DNA of 64,000 bases from Phenylobacterium sp. Root1290 (GTDB taxonomy: Bacteria > Pseudomonadota > Alphaproteobacteria > Caulobacterales > Caulobacteraceae), in contig NZ_LMEE01000002.1 of NCBI RefSeq assembly GCF_001425305.1, forward strand, positions 692,191-756,190, in the 5' to 3' direction. The notes under the pieces are model-generated. The model searched no databases. It saw only the letters and a program-made list of their open reading frames with translations, and was not told the DNA's origin. Of the stretch, positions 51,646 through 63,549 are shown piece by piece. Position numbers and translations under genes: made by a program. Each line of letters opens with the position of its first letter. Within the stretch, counting starts at the first letter, position 1.

Positions 51646-52179
51646 ATTCGCCGCCCCATGCAGGCGCCGCCCGTCAAAGACGGACCGCGCATCAATGATG
51701 AGATCCGCGTCCCCAAGGTTCTGCTTATCGACCAGCACGGCGAGAAGCAGGGCGTGATGCCGACGTCGAGCGCCATGGAGGCCGCTGAGGAAGCTGGCCT
51801 CGACCTGGTCGAGATCGTGCCCAATGCGGATCCGCCAGTCTGCAAGATCCTGGACTACGGCAAGTTCAAGTTCCAGGAACAGAAAAAGAAGAACGAGGCC
51901 CGCAAGCGCCAGAAGGTCGTCGAGATCAAGGAGATCAAACTCCGTCCGAACATCGACATTCACGACTACGAAGTGAAGACCAAGGCAATGCACCGGTTCT
52001 TCGACGAAGGCGACAAGGTGAAAGTCACCCTGCGCTTCCGCGGTCGCGAACTGGCTCACCCGGAACTCGGGATGAAGCTGCTCCAGAAGGTCAAGGCCGA
52101 CTTCGACGAAGTCGCCAAGGTCGAGTACGAGCCGCGCATGGAAGGCCGTCAGATGATCATGATCCTGGCCCCGCGCTAG
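51646..52179 (+). CDS. infC: Translation initiation factor IF-3, ATT start
   Basis: Ribosome 30S-bound factor that polices initiator tRNA and start codons. 177 residues from ATT 51646, reading (M)[21 protein letters not shown], the N-terminus found in other alphaproteobacteria; AGGAG ends nine bases before. The first ATG (51658) would lose four conserved residues and has no good ribosome site. A rare start codon lets IF-3 repress its own translation. Core blocks: [25 protein letters not shown] and [13 protein letters not shown]. rpmI and rplT are 11 kb away rather than adjacent. Confidence 0.94.
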
Positions 52180-53428: not shown

Positions 53429-54502
53429 CTACTCGGTGTAGCGCTTGCGCAAGGCGGCGATGTCGGCGGCGCTGACACCCAGCTCCTTGTCGAGATAGCC
53501 CTCGACCGAGCCGTACTCGGCGACGAGCGCGTCGAGGGTCGCCTCGATGTAGGCCGGTTCGGTGCGCATCAGCACGGTCAGGACCTCTGGCGGCAGCTTG
53601 GCCAGGGCGGCGGTGGCCGGATCGTCGGCGCGGGCCGCCTGCTGGCGCATGGTCGACTGCTGATACTTCTCGCTGAGCGCATAGTCCGAGACGACGATGC
53701 TGCGCGGCACGCCGAGCGCGGTGAGGATGAGGGCCGAGCCGACGCCGGTGCGATCCTTGCCCGCCGTGCAGTGCACGAGCATCGGCGTGTCGCCCGCCTT
53801 CATCCGCGCGAACATGGCCTTGTACTCAGGTGCGTAGACCTTTGGGGTCTGGCGGTAGAAGGCGATGAAGTTCTCACGGACCTTGGCCGCGGTCGGCGTC
53901 CCCTCGCCCATCAACGACTTGGCGTCGAAGTCTAGGTTGGCCTTCGGCGAGTTGAGGAAGGCCGGCGGCCGCCCCTGCCACTTGGTCGGTTGGGCGAGCC
54001 GTTCCTGATCGGTGCGCAGGTCGCAGATCAACCGGACGCCCAGACCATCGACGGTCTTGTAGTCCGCCGGAGTCAGCTCCGAGAGCGCGTTGGAGCGGAA
54101 CACCTGGCCCCACTTCACGCGGTGGCCGTCCTTGGTCGGATAGCCGCCGACGTCGCGGAAGTTGCTGGCGCCGCTCAGCGGAATCACCCGCGTGCCGATG
54201 CGGACGCCTGTCGGCGCAGCGTCGGCGCGGACGTAGAAGTAAGGCCGCACGCCCGCCCCCAGCGGATCGCGGAAGGCCTCGGCGCCGTCGGTGTCGTTGT
54301 CGGCCAGCTTCTTCATCGCCTTGGGCGCGGCGAGCGGATCGGCCGAGACATAGACGTCGACCGGGGCGCCTGGCTTGGCCGTAGCCCAGGTGACCTCGTA
54401 GACGCCGGCGTTCCAGCGGACGTCGGCCGCGGTGACCGCCGGCGGCGGAGCGGCGGCGGTCAGCAACGGCAGGGCGAGCAGGGGCAGCAGGATGCGCTTC
54501 AT
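53429..54502 (-). CDS. Exported tyrosine-phosphatase-family protein (Y_phosphatase3)
   Basis: 357 residues with a Sec signal peptide (ILLPLLALPLLTAAAPP). A beta domain of about 90 residues precedes the phosphatase part, which begins near SGASNFRDVGGYPTKDG, the family's lead block. The catalytic P-loop HCTAGKDRTG (Cys and Arg) is near residue 243. Related enzymes (Listeria LipA type) act on phosphotyrosine or phosphoinositides. It follows the TonB receptor by 14 bases on the same strand, so a periplasmic role on an imported phosphorylated ligand is a fair guess. Confidence 0.9.
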   Translation of the reverse strand: MKRILLPLLALPLLTAAAPPPAVTAADVRWNAGVYEVTWATAKPGAPVDVYVSADPLAAPKAMKKLADNDTDGAEAFRDPLGAGVRPYFYVRADAAPTGVRIGTRVIPLSGASNFRDVGGYPTKDGHRVKWGQVFRSNALSELTPADYKTVDGLGVRLICDLRTDQERLAQPTKWQGRPPAFLNSPKANLDFDAKSLMGEGTPTAAKVRENFIAFYRQTPKVYAPEYKAMFARMKAGDTPMLVHCTAGKDRTGVGSALILTALGVPRSIVVSDYALSEKYQQSTMRQQAARADDPATAALAKLPPEVLTVLMRTEPAYIEATLDALVAEYGSVEGYLDKELGVSAADIAALRKRYTE

Positions 54503-54516
54503 GGGAGTCTCCGGGA

Positions 54517-57123
54517 TCAGAAGTTGAAGCGCAGGCCGGCCATGTAGCGGCGGCCGACGCCTTCGGTCTCGATCGGGCGCGAGGGGTTGCCCTGGTAGCG
54601 CTGACCGATCTCGTCCGTGAGGTTGTTGGCGTCGAAGTAGACGGTCAGGCCGTCGCGCACCTGGTAGCGGATCGAGAAGTCGAGCTGCTCGGTCGCCGAC
54701 CAGTAGGTGTCGCTGGAGGCGTCAGGGCTGGGCTCGTCCAGCCAGTCGTCGCGCCACTGGTAGCTGAGGCGGGCGGAGAGGCCGTAGTTCTCATAGAAGA
54801 TCGAGGCGTTGGCGATGGCGTCCGACATGCCCGGGAACCGCGAGGTCTTGCCGTCCGGCGTCTTGAAGTCGCCGTCCAGCAGGGTGAGGTTGCCCTGGAA
54901 GCCGAAGCCGTCGAACGGCGCGGGCAGGAACTGCCACTGCTGCAGGTAGGCGAACTCGACGCCGCTGAGCGTGCCGTCCGAACCGTTGAGCGTCGTGGTG
55001 TAGTCGTAGCCGGTCCGGTCGAAGCCGGGCGCGTCGAAGCGGTCGTCCTGGATGGTGGCGGTCGCGTCGAAGAGGACGTCGTCGACCTTGCGCATGAAGG
55101 CCGAGACCGAGGCCAGGCCGGCGCCCGGCAGATACCACTCCAGGGCCGCATCGATCCCCCAGGCCCGCTCGGGCTTCAGGTCCGGATTGCCGCCCGAGAC
55201 GACCTCGGAGACGTCGTTGATGGAGACGCTGGTGCGCAGCTCACCGAACGAGGGCCGAGCGATGCCGGTGATCACGGCGAAGCGCGCCTGCAGGTCCTCG
55301 TTGATCTCGTAGTTGATATGCAGGCTGGGGAAGACGTCGGTGTACTCCTGGCCGACCGTCAACGGGGTGAGCGCGCCGCCGGCCGCCGCAGCCCCGGAGC
55401 TTTCCAGTTCGACATGCTCGACGCGCAGGCCGGCGAGGATCTCCCACGGGCCGGTGCGCCACTTGTTCTGGACGTAGCCGGCGAGGATGTCCTCCGAGAC
55501 GTCGAAGCGGTCTTGCGGCTGGACGACCTTGGCGGGGTCGTACAGCCCCTGGGCCTGAGCGGCGGCGAGCAGCGCGTCGAGCTTGGCGCGCAGCCCGATG
55601 TTCTCCATCTGGCGCACGCCCCAGCCGCGCTGGAAGTCCGAGTCCCACTGCGCCGCCTCGAGGTGCGGATCGGCGCTCCAGCCAAGACCGGTCTGGGCGC
55701 CAAAGCTCTGCAGCACCGGCGTCGCGCCGGGGACGCCGGAGAACGTGTTCCCCTGGGCCTTGCGGGTGTCGTACTTCAGGCCCGCCGAGAAGGTCGCCTC
55801 GGCGCCGAACGAGGTCCAGTCGCGGGTGACGTCGAGTTGGCCGGTCCAGGCGTCGGTGTTGGTCTCGGTCTTGATCGGGATCAGGACGTCGGCGGCCGAG
55901 CCGGTCTGGGGCAGGTCGCTCAGCGCCGCGCCGCGGGTGAACGCCGCCCCGGGAACCGATCGATAGAGCGACATGTTCGGAATGCCGCTGGTCGCGCCGT
56001 CATAGACCAGCGACAGGCGGCTGGCGGGCAGCACGAAGTTCTGCTGGATGAGCGGCAGGTTCATCCCGGCGTCGGTGTGGGTGTAGTTGAGTCGCCACTC
56101 GACCCCGAGGTCGCCAAACGTATGGTCGCCGCCGAGCGTGTTGGTGAAGGTGTCGTCGTAGTAGCGGCCGTACTGGAAGCTGGACGTGTAACCCGCGCCA
56201 TCGACGAAGCCGGCGTCGGCGCCGCGGTTGGCGGGGCTCTGGGTCAGGGCGCGCGAGAGCTGGAAGTCGTACTGGTTGCGCTGCTCGCGGTCGATGAACT
56301 CGGAGTACAGGCTGCTGGCGAAGATGCGGTCGCCGTTATCGAAGCGATATTCGAGCCCCAGCTGCCCGGCGTTGTTCTCGCGCTCCAGCTGATATGAGCG
56401 GAACGAGAAGTCGTCCGGGGTGTCGAGGTTGCCGTCGCGGCTCCAGGTGATCTCGCGGTTGTCGGTCGTCTGGTTGCGGCGGTAGTGGGCCAGCGCCGCG
56501 GTGACGCCGAACTTGTCGTTGGACCAGGACAGGCGCACCGAGCCCTGCCGCTGCGGCCCTTCGCCGAGCTCCATCTGGCCCCAGCCCACGTCGCCCGAGA
56601 CGCTCAGGCCTCGCTGGTCGAAGGGCGAGGCGGTGACGATGTTGATGCGGCCGGCCAGCGCTTCGGCCGGCTGGTCGGGGGTCAGGGTCTTGTTGATCTC
56701 CAGACTGGAGATCACGACCGCCGGCACCGAGTCGAAGCGGAACAGCCGCTCCTCGGCGCCGAGGATGTTCATCCCGTCGACGGCCACGACGGTCCACCGC
56801 TCGGGCGCGCCGCGCAGCTGGACGTAGCGCTCCTGGCCCTGGTCGCGCTCGATGGCGACGCCGGGAACGCGCGAGAGCGCGGCGGCGGCCGACTGGTCGG
56901 GGAAGCGGCCGACGGCGTCGGCGGCGACGATGCTGACGATGTTGTCGGCTTCGCGCTGTTGGGCGATGGCGGCGGCCTGGGCGTCGAGGATCGGCCTGGC
57001 GACGACCACGACCTCCTCGACGGCGGCCACGTCATCGTCGGCCCAAGCAACGGCCGGCGCCGCCGCGAGCGCCGTAGTGGCAAGCAGCGCGGCTCGCATG
57101 AGCCGGGCGGAAGGTCTGAACAT
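54517..57123 (-). CDS. TonB-dependent outer-membrane receptor
   Basis: 868 residues. Signal peptide ends near AVAWADD; the TonB-box-like VEEVVVVARP follows. The plug has DQSAAAALSRVPGVAIERD, VQLRGAPERWTVVAVDGM and INKTLTPDQPAEALAGRINI; the 22-strand barrel ends in the aromatic RFNF. This is the class of receptors without a carboxypeptidase-type extension, common in Caulobacterales for sugar or other carbon ligands. ATG 57123 is preferred to 57225. Operon with the exported phosphatase; divergent from a two-domain TetR protein. Confidence 0.95.
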   Translation of the reverse strand: MFRPSARLMRAALLATTALAAAPAVAWADDDVAAVEEVVVVARPILDAQAAAIAQQREADNIVSIVAADAVGRFPDQSAAAALSRVPGVAIERDQGQERYVQLRGAPERWTVVAVDGMNILGAEERLFRFDSVPAVVISSLEINKTLTPDQPAEALAGRINIVTASPFDQRGLSVSGDVGWGQMELGEGPQRQGSVRLSWSNDKFGVTAALAHYRRNQTTDNREITWSRDGNLDTPDDFSFRSYQLERENNAGQLGLEYRFDNGDRIFASSLYSEFIDREQRNQYDFQLSRALTQSPANRGADAGFVDGAGYTSSFQYGRYYDDTFTNTLGGDHTFGDLGVEWRLNYTHTDAGMNLPLIQQNFVLPASRLSLVYDGATSGIPNMSLYRSVPGAAFTRGAALSDLPQTGSAADVLIPIKTETNTDAWTGQLDVTRDWTSFGAEATFSAGLKYDTRKAQGNTFSGVPGATPVLQSFGAQTGLGWSADPHLEAAQWDSDFQRGWGVRQMENIGLRAKLDALLAAAQAQGLYDPAKVVQPQDRFDVSEDILAGYVQNKWRTGPWEILAGLRVEHVELESSGAAAAGGALTPLTVGQEYTDVFPSLHINYEINEDLQARFAVITGIARPSFGELRTSVSINDVSEVVSGGNPDLKPERAWGIDAALEWYLPGAGLASVSAFMRKVDDVLFDATATIQDDRFDAPGFDRTGYDYTTTLNGSDGTLSGVEFAYLQQWQFLPAPFDGFGFQGNLTLLDGDFKTPDGKTSRFPGMSDAIANASIFYENYGLSARLSYQWRDDWLDEPSPDASSDTYWSATEQLDFSIRYQVRDGLTVYFDANNLTDEIGQRYQGNPSRPIETEGVGRRYMAGLRFNF

Positions 57124-57165: not shown

Positions 57166-57302
57166 TTCGAACAGTTGTACAGGGTGAAGCTTCGCGCAAG
57201 TTTTCGCGACAGTTTCGCAAACCACTGGCGATCAAGGACTTATTCTCGATATTCAGGGGCCAGGCACGTAAGCAAGGCAGACCGGAATTGAACGATTGTA
57301 CA
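57166..57302. promoter_or_regulatory. Repeated candidate operator between TonB receptor and TetR gene
   Basis: Two direct copies of a motif GAAC-N2-TTGTACA: within 57166-57181 (TTCGAACAGTTGTACA) and 57288-57302 (TTGAACGATTGTACA). One lies 43 bases before the receptor start, the other 36 bases before the TetR start at 57338. Placement at both divergent promoters suits one regulator acting on both. The core TGTACA is itself a palindrome. Confidence 0.6.
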
Positions 57303-57337: not shown

Positions 57338-58546
57338 ATGACCGAGCCGATGCGGGAGTTGATGGGGGGCACGGCCGAACGCCTGATCGCCGCGGGCGTC
57401 GATCTCGCGCGAGAGGAAGGCCTGCCGGCGCTCAGCGCGCGCGCCCTGGCCGAACGCGCCGGCGCCAGTCCGTCGGCGCTCAACTATCACCTCGGCGGAC
57501 GCGAGCGGCTGCTGGAGCATGTGCTGGATCATGCCGCGCAGGCGGCCCGTGACTGGTGCGCGCAGCGGCTGGCCGATGTGAGCGACGAGGCCGGGGCGCC
57601 GGCCTGGCTCTCACCGGCCGGAGCGATGGCGGCGATCATCGGCGACCGGGTCACTGCGTTCCGCACCTGGACGCTGTTGCTGGCCGAGTTCGAGATCCAG
57701 GCCGAGGCGGGAGACAGCGCGGCGCTGTCGGCGCGGCTGGGACGACAGAACGCCGCAACCGATCGCTTCTGGCGCGATGTGGCCCTGGCCCTGGGCGAGA
57801 ACGCCGATCGTGCGGCCATCTGGTCGGACCTGGCGATCGGGCTGACGCAGCTGCTGCTCAGCGACGAGCCGGTGGCTGTGAAGGCGCCGTGGATCGTCGA
57901 TTCCGCGAACCGCGCGCATGCGCGGATGCTGGGGCAGGTTCCGGGGCCGCTGCCCGAGCGGCCGCTGGGCGCAGCCGAGCGACTGAGCGGCGAGGCGCCG
58001 GTGGGCGACAGCGCGCGCAAGTTGCTCGATGCGGCGCTGCGGATCATCGCCGAGAAGGGCGCCGATCGGCTGACCCAGCGCGACGTGGCGGCGGGCGCCG
58101 GCCTGTCGCTGGCGGCCACGACCTACTTCTTCCGCACCAAGGCCGACCTGGTCTCAGCCGCCTTTCACGAGCTGCACCGGCAGGTCAGCGCACAGGCGCT
58201 GGCGGCGAGCGGCGCGGACCAGACCCTTCTGGGCGGGACGCTGGAGGACGACGGCGAGCGGGCGGCCTGGCGGGTGCGGGCGATGGAAGCGCTGCAGCTG
58301 TCCTCGGCGCGCGAACCCTCGCTGTCTCCGATCGCGCGCGAACTGCGGGCGACCCGGGGCGCCACCTCGATCGTCTGGCTGCGGGCCCAGGGACTGCAGG
58401 TCGACCGGCTGGACGCCTTCGTCTTCTCGACGGCCATGTCCGGCGCGATCCAGCGCACCCGCTTCGCACCGCCGGGCCGGCGCCGCATGGAGATCGCCGA
58501 GAGCCAGACGCGATTGCTGAGCACGCTGTTCGGCCGGCAGGCCTGA
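57338..58546 (+). CDS. Tandem double-TetR-domain transcriptional regulator
   Basis: 402 residues that hold two TetR units. Unit 1: HTH at about residues 12-58, with LAERAGASPSALNYHLGG as the recognition part. Unit 2: HTH at about 225-272, RDVAAGAGLSLAATTYFF, in an otherwise TetR-like chain. Each is followed by a helical ligand-domain-sized stretch. Most TetR proteins are about 200 residues and homodimeric; this one could form a pseudo-dimer in a single chain. Divergent from the receptor operon it most likely controls. ATG 57338. Confidence 0.9.
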   Translation: MTEPMRELMGGTAERLIAAGVDLAREEGLPALSARALAERAGASPSALNYHLGGRERLLEHVLDHAAQAARDWCAQRLADVSDEAGAPAWLSPAGAMAAIIGDRVTAFRTWTLLLAEFEIQAEAGDSAALSARLGRQNAATDRFWRDVALALGENADRAAIWSDLAIGLTQLLLSDEPVAVKAPWIVDSANRAHARMLGQVPGPLPERPLGAAERLSGEAPVGDSARKLLDAALRIIAEKGADRLTQRDVAAGAGLSLAATTYFFRTKADLVSAAFHELHRQVSAQALAASGADQTLLGGTLEDDGERAAWRVRAMEALQLSSAREPSLSPIARELRATRGATSIVWLRAQGLQVDRLDAFVFSTAMSGAIQRTRFAPPGRRRMEIAESQTRLLSTLFGRQA

Positions 58547-58696: not shown

Positions 58697-59938
58697 ATGA
58701 CCGACACCGCGCCGCGGGGGAAGGCTCCGTCCCGCTGGGCGGCGCCCTCCCTGATCGCCGTTATTTTCATCAATATGCTCGGCTTCGGGATCATCGTCCC
58801 GTTGCTGCCCTTCTACGCCAAGTCGTTCAATGCGCCTGGCTGGCAGATCGGGCTGATCTTCGCGGCCTATTCGGTGGGCGCATTCTTCGGCGAGCCCTTC
58901 TGGGGCCGACTGTCCGACAAGTACGGCCGCAAGCCGCTGCTGATCTCGACGATCACCGGCAACTGCCTCTGCTACCTGGCCCTGGCCTTCGCCCCGAACA
59001 TCTGGGTCGCGTTCGCGATCCGGCTGGTCGGCGGGCTGGCTGCCGGCAACGGCGCGGTGGTGCAGGGCTACCTGGCCGACGTGACGCCGCCCGAGAAGCG
59101 GGCCCGGCAGATGTCGTACCAGAGCGCGGCCTGGAACGTCGGCCTGATCGTCGGCCCGTCCGTCGGCGGGCTGTTCGTCCATACGGGGGCCGGCCCGACC
59201 GGCTTCCGCATCCCGCTGTTCATCGCCTCGGGCCTGGCCCTGCTCTGCGTGATCGCGATCATGCTCTTCATCCGCGAGAGCCGCATCCGCGACACCAGCA
59301 TCACCGATCGCCCCAGCCGCTGGTCGGCGATCGGCGAGGCCGTCAGCCATCCGGTGATCGGCCGGCTGATGCTGCTGACCTTCCTGGTCGGCTTCGCCTT
59401 CACCGGGATCGAATCGATGTTCGGGCCGTGGTCCAACGCGCGCTTCGGATGGGAGCCGCGGGACATCGGCGTCTGCTTCGCCTTCGTCGGCATGGCCGCG
59501 TTCCTGACCCAGACGCTGGTCACCGGCCAGATGTCCGAACGGTTCGGCGAGGGCCCGATGCTGGCCGTCGGCATGAGCATGACCGTCATCGGCGCGTTGC
59601 TGCAGACCGTCTCGACAGGCGGACCGATGACCATCGCCCTGATGTGCTTCACCGCCGTCGGCCAATCGGTGGCGTATCCCAACGTCGGGGCGCTGATCTC
59701 GCGCACCGCCGATCCACATAAGCAGGGCCAGATCCTGGGGTTGAACAACGCCTGCGGCGCGGCCGCCCGCGTGGTCGGGCCGATCACGGCCGGCTTCGTG
59801 TTCGAGTCCTATTTGAACGGGCCATTCATTATCGCCGCCATGGTGGTGGCGCCGGCGATCTTCCTGGCCCTATCGGCCGGGAGGCGCGCCAAGGCCCACC
59901 TGGCGGCGCAGCAGGCCCAGTCGGCGGAACAGCCATGA
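58697..59938 (+). CDS. MFS exporter of the TCR/Tet family, copy 1
   Basis: 413 residues, 12 predicted transmembrane helices. The MFS motif A is in FWGRLSDKYGRKPLL between helices 2 and 3; LGFGIIVPLLPFYAKSF begins helix 1. Belongs to the Tet/TCR-like drug:proton antiporter group; substrate unknown. ATG 58697 is chosen. Its stop overlaps the start of a second, similar exporter by four bases. Confidence 0.93.
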   Translation: MTDTAPRGKAPSRWAAPSLIAVIFINMLGFGIIVPLLPFYAKSFNAPGWQIGLIFAAYSVGAFFGEPFWGRLSDKYGRKPLLISTITGNCLCYLALAFAPNIWVAFAIRLVGGLAAGNGAVVQGYLADVTPPEKRARQMSYQSAAWNVGLIVGPSVGGLFVHTGAGPTGFRIPLFIASGLALLCVIAIMLFIRESRIRDTSITDRPSRWSAIGEAVSHPVIGRLMLLTFLVGFAFTGIESMFGPWSNARFGWEPRDIGVCFAFVGMAAFLTQTLVTGQMSERFGEGPMLAVGMSMTVIGALLQTVSTGGPMTIALMCFTAVGQSVAYPNVGALISRTADPHKQGQILGLNNACGAAARVVGPITAGFVFESYLNGPFIIAAMVVAPAIFLALSAGRRAKAHLAAQQAQSAEQP

Positions 59939-61140
59939 GCCAGGCCCCGCCACCGCCCGCGGGCGATCGGCGGGCCCTGATCGTCCTGCTGTCGGTGATC
60001 TTCCTGAACATCGCCGGCTTTGGCCTGGTGATCCCGCTGCTGCCGTTCTTCGGCAAGGCGCTGAACGCGCCCGCCTGGCAGATCGCCATCCTGTTCTCGG
60101 CCTTCTCGTTCGGCCAGTTCCTGGGCGAGCCGTTCTGGGGCCGGATGTCCGACCGCATCGGCCGGCGGCCGGTGCTGATGGTGACCATCGCCGGCGGCGC
60201 GCTGGCCTATGTGGCGCTGGCCTTCGCCCCGACCATCTGGCTGGCCTTCCTGGCCCGGTTCGTCGGCGGCTTCCTGTCGGGCAACATCTCGACGCTGCAG
60301 GGATCGCTGGCCGACATCACCCGGCCCGAGGAGCGCGCGGCCAAGATGGGGCTGATGGGCTCAGCCTTCTCGCTCGGCTTCATGGTCGGCCCGGCGATCG
60401 GCGGCCTGCTGGCCCATCCCGAGCTGGGGACTTTCGGCTTCCAGATCCCGCTGTTCGCGGCGGCGGGCTTTGGCCTGCTGTCGGCGCTGGCGGTGTTCGC
60501 CTTCGTCCGCGAGAGCCGGCCCGAGCGGCACAAGGGTCCGCAGCCCAACCGCATGGAGGTGCTGCGTGTCTCGCTGGCGCACCCGATCATCCTGCGGGTG
60601 ATGCTGATCAGCTTCGTGGTGATCTCAGGCTTCGCCGGGATCGAGGCGACCTACGGCCTGTGGACCGAGCACCGCTTCAACTGGGGCCCGCGCGAGATCG
60701 GCTTCGCCTTCATGGGCATCGGCGTCCTGGGCGCGTTCTGCCAGGCGGTGGTGACCGGCGCGCTGGTGCGCCGCCACGGCGAGGCGCTGGTCCTCACCGC
60801 CGGGCTGGCGGCCATGTGGATCGGCATGATCTTCCAGTTCCTCTCGCCCAACTGGCCGGTGGCCATGGTCGGGTTCGCGTTCGTCTGCTTCGGACAGTCG
60901 ATCTGCTTCCCCTGCCTGACGGCGCTGATCTCGCAGGCCGCGCCGCCGGAGCGACAGGGCGAGACCATGGGACTCAACATGTCGAACATGGCCCTGGCGC
61001 GGATCGGCGGCCCGATCTTCGCCGGCCAGCTGTTCTCGCTGGTCGATCCGGGCGCGGCGTTCGTGGTGACGGCGATCCTGATCATCCCGGCGGTGGTGAT
61101 GGCGCTGCAGATCCTCAAGCGGATGCCGCGGCCCGCGTGA
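59935..61140 (+). CDS. MFS exporter of the TCR/Tet family, copy 2
   Basis: 401 residues, 12 helices; FWGRMSDRIGRRPVLM is motif A and GFGLVIPLLPFFGKAL is helix 1, matching copy 1 closely. The start overlaps the previous stop (ATGA), so the two are co-translated; an ancient duplication is likely, perhaps working as a heterodimer or on different substrates. EamA follows by 33 bases. Confidence 0.93.
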   Translation: MSQAPPPPAGDRRALIVLLSVIFLNIAGFGLVIPLLPFFGKALNAPAWQIAILFSAFSFGQFLGEPFWGRMSDRIGRRPVLMVTIAGGALAYVALAFAPTIWLAFLARFVGGFLSGNISTLQGSLADITRPEERAAKMGLMGSAFSLGFMVGPAIGGLLAHPELGTFGFQIPLFAAAGFGLLSALAVFAFVRESRPERHKGPQPNRMEVLRVSLAHPIILRVMLISFVVISGFAGIEATYGLWTEHRFNWGPREIGFAFMGIGVLGAFCQAVVTGALVRRHGEALVLTAGLAAMWIGMIFQFLSPNWPVAMVGFAFVCFGQSICFPCLTALISQAAPPERQGETMGLNMSNMALARIGGPIFAGQLFSLVDPGAAFVVTAILIIPAVVMALQILKRMPRPA

Positions 61141-62978: not shown

Positions 62979-63179
62979 ATGCCCAAACTGAAGACCAAAT
63001 CGGGCGTGAAAAAGCGCTTCAAGCTGACCGCGAACGGCAAGCTGAAGGCCGGCGTGGCCGGCAAGCGTCACCGCTTGATCAGCCACAGCGCCAAGTACAT
63101 CCGTCAGAACCGTGGCACCAAGGTGATGAGCGAAGCTGACACGAAGATCGTCAAGCTTTGGCTCCCCTACGGCCTTTAA
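62979..63179 (+). CDS. rpmI: 50S ribosomal protein L35
   Basis: 66 residues, [17 protein letters not shown] to KLWLPYGL, strongly basic and canonical. ATG 62979 lies inside a much longer open frame that continues upstream only because of high GC. It is followed by rplT after 13 bases. Confidence 0.98.
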
Positions 63180-63192
63180 GGAGAACTGACAG

Positions 63193-63549
63193 ATGGCTCG
63201 CGTGAAACGGGGCGTTGTCGCCCACGCCAAGCACAAGAAGGTTCTCGAGCAAGCCAAGGGCTTCTACGGGCGCCGCAAGAACACCATCCGCGCCGCCAAG
63301 GCGGCCGTGGATCGGGCCGGCCAGTACGCGTATCGCGACCGCAAGGTCCGCAAGCGCAACTTCCGCTCGCTGTGGATCCAACGGATCAACGCTGCGGCTC
63401 GCCTGGAAGGCTTCACCTACTCGCAGTTTATCTTCGGCCTGGACAAGGCCGGGATCGAAATCGACCGCAAGGTCCTCTCGGACATCGCGGGTAACGATCC
63501 CACCGGGTTCAAGGCCATCGCCGACAAGGTTCGCGCCGCGCTGGCTTGA
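63193..63549 (+). CDS. rplT: 50S ribosomal protein L20
   Basis: 118 residues; [20 protein letters not shown] and [24 protein letters not shown] are the family start (core ARVKRGV, RAGQYAY). An assembly protein for 23S rRNA that also represses its own operon in other bacteria. A terminator hairpin separates it from pheS. Confidence 0.98.

Follow-up and report, generated by a model that had tools for sequence, protein, structure and literature searches.

The locus raises the question of whether a single gene of Phenylobacterium sp. Root1290 truly encodes one chain with two complete TetR units and, if so, which DNA such a protein would recognize and which genes it would control. The gene lies in a stretch of 64,000 nucleotides, referred to as the window, and its parts are as follows.

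57338..58546, + strand: double TetR regulator gene, 402 amino acids (Pfam, frames of relatives, AlphaFold2 model)
57380..57520, + strand: TetR_N helix-turn-helix (HTH) of the N half, residues about 15-61 (profile searches)
57929..58009, + strand: poorly conserved linker between the halves, residues about 198-224 (alignment, model)
58022..58162, + strand: TetR_N HTH of the C half, residues 229-275 (profile searches)

The sequence-only reading had placed two TetR-type HTH units at about residues 12-58 and 225-272 within one uninterrupted frame. Indeed, the 402-residue translation of 57338-58546 (+) contained no internal stop, both units lay in that one frame, and an iterated HMM located them at residues 16-59 and 229-272. 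The Pfam profile TetR_N (PF00440) matched two stretches, the protein scoring 60.6 bits against a cut-off of 24 with 229-275 as the best stretch, and in a whole-genome profile search the two units scored 34.8 and 39.5 bits, both above the cut-off. The TetR_N scores above the curated cut-off assign the protein to the TetR family. The linker had a mean pairwise identity of 0.19, and the two HTH units had 0.48 and 0.47.

A frameshift or an assembly error joining two genes could have produced such a frame. With a threshold of E <= 1e-20, protein searches detected matches in 13 of 199 genomes of the family, 10 of 101 of the genus, and 10 of 299 of the order, the own genome being counted in each; the three levels pooled gave 20 distinct other genomes with a relative of the regulator. 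In all 20 relatives both TetR units were located inside a single open frame, and the artefact is therefore excluded. Two matches flagged "1 TAG" (L017 and L042) only carried their natural terminal stop. The distribution was patchy, 91 of the 101 genus genomes having no match at this threshold. An earlier scan of named genomes with a single protein as the query found no relative, and a named-genome scan yielding 25 loci contributed three more, Caulobacter hibisci (44%) and two Pandoraea (36-38%). Ten of these loci (L073-L082), with partial matches of 40 to about 157 residues, were excluded from all counts, and twelve of the other fifteen were taken to be in genomes already included, which were counted once. 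The resulting set of 24 loci, namely the window, the 20 relatives, and the three added loci, was used below, with the start codons of the relatives picked by a script.

AlphaFold2 with an alignment of 16 sequences gave a confident model (pLDDT 86.8, pTM 0.88) containing nine helices in the N half and at least nine in the C half; a single-sequence model (pLDDT 41) was discarded. As the earlier reading had expected of each unit, the halves of the monomer model were both TetR-like, each with its own helical domain. The N half matched the single TetR structure 3kkd_B (Z 13.2 over 8-200) and the C half 2g3b_B (Z 14.1 over 223-399), and two complete units, HTH plus helical domain, were thus found in one chain. 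Conventional TetR proteins (EbrR 3hta, 2g3b, and 3kkd) share the fold and the HTH with each half of the regulator, whereas they have one unit per chain instead of two. The best 50 matches from Foldseek and from VIA-align were nearly all single TetR chains, so that a lack of other double proteins among them carries no weight. The sole Foldseek match under E 0.001 was Mce3R (PDB 9b7y), which was also first in VIA-align (Z 18.2, 344 residues, covering 5-395 of the model) and was the only one of its best 50 matches spanning both halves, the other 49 covering one half each. Because Mce3R could be superposed globally only in a loose manner (TM 0.40, rmsd 8.8 A over 344 residues), the relative placement of the halves is left out of the claim; in its modelled form, the regulator shares the Mce3R architecture. 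On a further trait of Mce3R-type regulators, a four-helix bundle built over one DNA site by the two halves of a chain, the confident model with Mce3R as its best match stands against this loose superposition.

Mce3R is described as a single-chain double TetR repressor acting on a non-palindromic operator, with an asymmetric TetR fold determined by cryo-EM, and is by the authors' account the first double TetR to be solved (PMC11667970). The description also gives halves that pair within one chain, a single ligand-binding domain, and an operator of two asymmetric 25-bp sites located 53 bp apart, and the authors concluded that both HTHs are needed (PMC11667970). Since this published protein spans both halves of the regulator, the double TetR architecture is already known and is not new. 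As far as sequence and model can show, the regulator resembles Mce3R (Rv1963c of M. tuberculosis) in carrying two complete TetR units on one chain of about 400 residues. The likeness may extend to a non-palindromic operator in two copies and to a gene lying in its own regulon, both of which are predictions for the present regulator. The two proteins differ in that they share 16-17% identity, that the family profile of the regulator matches by sequence the N half of Mce3R only, and that the mce3 (yrbE3A) lipid-transport operon was not found beside the gene, where a receptor and a phosphatase gene lie instead. Orthology with Mce3R is not claimed because of the N-half match and the different neighbours. 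The paper also cites 204 double TetR proteins predicted in Actinomycetes (PMC11667970); these likewise have two TetR units fused in one chain, whereas the present group belongs to Caulobacterales and Pandoraea. Among the matches listed from the open-licence literature, which comprised titles and starts of abstracts, none concerned a characterized proteobacterial double TetR. EdcR (PMC8700777) and GplR1 (PMC12455991) were considered and set aside, since nothing in the available portions of the two texts describes a double TetR.

Subsequently, the DNA in front of the gene was examined for a site that such a protein could recognize, and two copies of a candidate were located.

57169..57181, + strand: predicted operator copy 1, GAACAGTTGTACA, 45 bp from the start codon of the receptor gene (repeats, conservation)
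57290..57302, + strand: predicted operator copy 2, GAACGATTGTACA, in the same orientation, 35 bp before the ATG of the regulator (repeats, conservation)

These sites, described beforehand as direct and not symmetric, are exact direct repeats, and the predicted core in its 12-base form, GAACNNNTGTAC, is asymmetric. Within 300 bp upstream of the regulator (7,200 bases in total), the core was present in 19 of the 24 loci, with 28 forward and no reverse occurrences, and it was absent from the other 364,511 bases of the same loci; the window contained the 12-base site at the two copies only. When one mismatch was allowed in the 24 upstream regions, 47 forward matches and one reverse match were obtained in 22 loci, as compared with means of 0.63 forward and 0.67 reverse and maxima of 3 and 4 in 300 shuffles, which preserve base composition only. 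The counted pattern was derived from the window itself, and site counts overstate independence, as many loci are closely related and their sites share ancestry.

In the 4.26 Mb of the own genome, GAACNNNTGTACA occurred exactly twice, at both predicted operator copies; a backwards control pattern also occurred twice, and a scan of the window with up to two mismatches gave 3 matches versus 2.67 expected by chance. Accordingly, bare site counts prove little against chance, and placement tells more than count. The case for the operator rests on the conservation of both exact copies and on their shared position in a single 214-bp gap. Alignment of this intergenic region with those of the two closest relatives (73% and 69%) revealed two conserved islands, GAACnnnTGTACA, one near the receptor gene and one near the regulator gene, running in the same direction.

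The number of copies varied among the loci. The seven Caulobacter loci had two more copies each near the regulator start, one base off (TGTCC for TGTAC), and the Pandoraea orthologs (L069 and L070) had three sites each. A single exact copy with no second was found in L029, L030, L032, and L050, and one site with a mismatch in each of L052 and L053, while L031 and L054 had no site even with one mismatch. These loci, and the lone reverse match described below, count against the assignment of the operator to this regulator. In L052, L053, and L054, the predicted start codon of the regulator is overlapped by a variant of the site (TGTACCA type), which encodes the first residues MYQ. The distance between copies was 121, 130, 131, 122, and 166 bp in five loci and 172 and 61-62 bp in Pandoraea; as the spacing varies, no looping is claimed.

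The repeated sites could instead belong to another factor or be promoter elements of the receptor gene, given that the blocks flanking copy 1 (TAGCAATT and TGAAGC) are conserved in the closest relatives and may be such elements. We searched for a sigma-70-like promoter near the sites and found none; a placement of copy 1 between -35 and -10 was dropped for this reason. What makes this explanation improbable is that the core recurs in the same orientation, three copies each, before the two Pandoraea orthologs, whose 17-kb loci contain neither a receptor nor a phosphatase homolog. On this ground the sites appear to travel with the regulator, and the Pandoraea copies are the strongest sign that the site would belong to it. 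Moreover, GAACNNNTGTACA was found nowhere else in the own genome. A 9-base pattern gave 66 matches in 10 genomes, 17 at the regulator and 49 elsewhere, and the seven distant ones examined, picked for middle bases like those of real sites, were all inside predicted ORFs.

The right half of the site nearly mirrors the left (GAAC / GTAC), one base breaking the symmetry. In the one-mismatch copies this base was C 14 times and G once, but in no case T, which would have completed a palindrome. Three symmetric patterns occurred 0, 1, and 0 times in the 24 upstream regions (GAACNNNNGTTC 0, GTACNNNNGTAC 1), and the lone GTACNNNNGTAC was also the lone reverse match, located at -41 in L030. Hence the palindromic operator that is a trait of conventional homodimeric TetR repressors was not found, and the conserved sequences point to the asymmetric, non-palindromic operator that is a trait of double TetR proteins. 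Typical TetR proteins are homodimers, and two chains of the regulator might accordingly form a symmetric, conventional dimer in which the N halves pair with each other and the C halves likewise, giving palindromic targets of two types. The authors of the Mce3R study drew this layout as a possibility, but the halves of Mce3R itself pair within one chain (PMC11667970). The near absence of symmetric site versions and the polarity fixed at 47 to 1 also speak against symmetric pairing, which we regard as quite unlikely. The proposal of a fused pseudo-dimer on an asymmetric operator is therefore well supported at the sequence level (28 of 28 exact and 47 of 48 one-mismatch sites in the same direction, symmetric forms nearly absent, and the match to Mce3R), but is not supported as a novelty, the architecture having already been published. 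The predicted operator is what the present analysis would add to that architecture.

The genes that the regulator might control were then considered. The neighbours were called with a simple ORF caller and checked by tblastn.

54517..57123, - strand: TonB-dependent receptor (TIGR01782 TonB-Xanth-Caul), divergent from the regulator, predicted target (profile, relatives)
53429..54502, - strand: tyrosine-phosphatase-family enzyme (PF13350) with the motif HCTAGKDR, predicted target (profile, relatives)
58697-59938 and 59935-61140, + strand: two adjacent MFS transporter genes, tetracycline-efflux-like, scoring under the curated cut-offs for the listed families

The phosphatase gene follows the receptor gene by 14 bp on the same strand, and the two probably form one operon; the N-terminus of the phosphatase reads as an apparent signal peptide. 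A literature search for its PDB homolog 8DHI found no paper. The receptor homolog was divergent from the regulator in 18 of the 20 relatives (Caulobacterales), and the phosphatase was present in 19. In L031, the phosphatase lies beside a different TonB-dependent receptor, and in L049, the contig of which ends 761 bp before the regulator, neither gene was found. The receptor gene of one relative (L024:3023-5886) is in two frames (658 + 314 aa), possibly owing to a frameshift or a sequencing error.

The two MFS genes at 58697-61140 are the next genes downstream on the strand of the regulator and resemble Tet(A/B/C)-type transporters, albeit below curated cut-offs, so that the regulator could control them as a classical TetR would control drug efflux. 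However, MFS genes were present in only one of the 20 relatives' loci (L047; L022, L023, and L026 end too soon to show them), whereas the receptor and the phosphatase were nearly always there. The conserved linkage to an efflux gene that is a trait of TetR/MFS pairs was thus not found, and the 12-base site occurs in the window at its two copies only. Control of the MFS genes consequently has little probability.

The genes for infC and L35/L20 are usually adjacent. In the window, what we take to be an infC-like gene (51658-52179) and the L35/L20 ribosomal genes (about 62980-63549) are about 11 kb apart with the regulator module between them, and the module also lies between them in L047, where the distance is about 13 kb.

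The preferred reading is that the single-chain pseudo-dimer binds two direct copies of the asymmetric operator and represses its own gene and the divergent receptor and phosphatase genes until a small molecule releases it; we estimate its probability at roughly 0.75. Two unequal halves of one TetR-family chain would pack as a built-in pseudo-dimer. This would bind the direct copies of the site with the core described above, one near the start of the regulator gene and one near the divergent start of the receptor and phosphatase genes, and the bound regulator would repress both sides. Activation instead of repression is possible. A small molecule, probably one linked to the scavenged phosphoester, would release the regulator from DNA. 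The sequence-only reading had also suggested that the protein could sense two ligands; for Mce3R, a single ligand-binding domain is described (PMC11667970).

The nature of this ligand was approached through the gene neighbourhoods. A locus for inositol-phosphate (phytate) uptake would combine a receptor and a phosphatase with a phytase. A phytase was found in 6 of 23 relatives' loci, as a beta-propeller type (PF02333) by Pfam in L021 and L053 and by similarity in L024, L025, L027, and L067; for this count, one side was beyond judging in L022, L023, and L026, which end within 260 bp of the regulator. The own genome contained one phytase, on another contig. The neighbours of the Pandoraea regulator in L069 included Ugp-type ABC transporter genes (two of three below curated cut-offs), an OprB-type porin, and a metallophosphoesterase. 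The phytases, these neighbours, and the phosphatase suggest phosphoester scavenging. Elsewhere in the own genome (L037:5307-10145), genes for a TonB-dependent receptor and for a phosphoinositide phospholipase C (PF16670) come after a paralog from the same lineage, an arrangement that fits an inositol-phosphate theme.

Seven double TetR frames were found in the own genome by Pfam, and the iterated HMM added an eighth, L101. Besides the regulator, the genes are located at C1:1810465, C3:469874, C2:256605, C2:847551, C2:497908, C1:1305894, and C4:26135 (L033-L038 and L101), and L034-L036 lie, by reading of the ORFs, among genes of acyl-CoA-type metabolism. A quick tree was built from 69 rows (15 N halves, 15 C halves, and 39 single-unit rows of the own genome), covering 40 of this genome's 53 other TetR_N places. 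The N halves of the regulator group and of the paralog L037 grouped together (SH-aLRT 89), and their C halves formed a separate set (96), the pattern that an old fusion passed on as one piece would be expected to leave. The sequence-only reading had suggested following the two halves separately. The other six doubles of the own genome formed a second set (SH-aLRT 93), suggesting that the two double TetR lineages arose by independent fusion, with deep forks that are weak. Two further TetR frames of the own genome, L089 (398 aa) and L098 (444 aa), have one HTH each, at residues 221 and 242, respectively; their N-terminal portion may represent a second unit that has degenerated, or stem from a wrong start.

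A broader and more speculative proposal, which we consider rather doubtful, is that single-chain TetR pseudo-dimers with a polarized operator, of which the regulator is one, form a proteobacterial class that senses an inositol phosphate or a related phosphoester, controls TonB-dependent uptake and periplasmic dephosphorylation, and arose independently of the second double TetR lineage in the same genome. If true, this would be an inositol-phosphate sensor of the TetR type whose direction on DNA is built in.

The regulator is a real and conserved protein whose kind was described recently, and although the principle has already been published, the operator and the target genes are a new and directly testable prediction. 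In bacteria such as Caulobacter, the group would provide a second case beside Mce3R, one whose asymmetric operator is sharply predicted and whose target genes are predicted as well. It makes testable which half of the protein reads which half-site and whether the fusion of a dimer lets an operator acquire direction. Should the phosphoester link prove true, it would also name a regulator for organic-phosphate scavenging in Caulobacterales.
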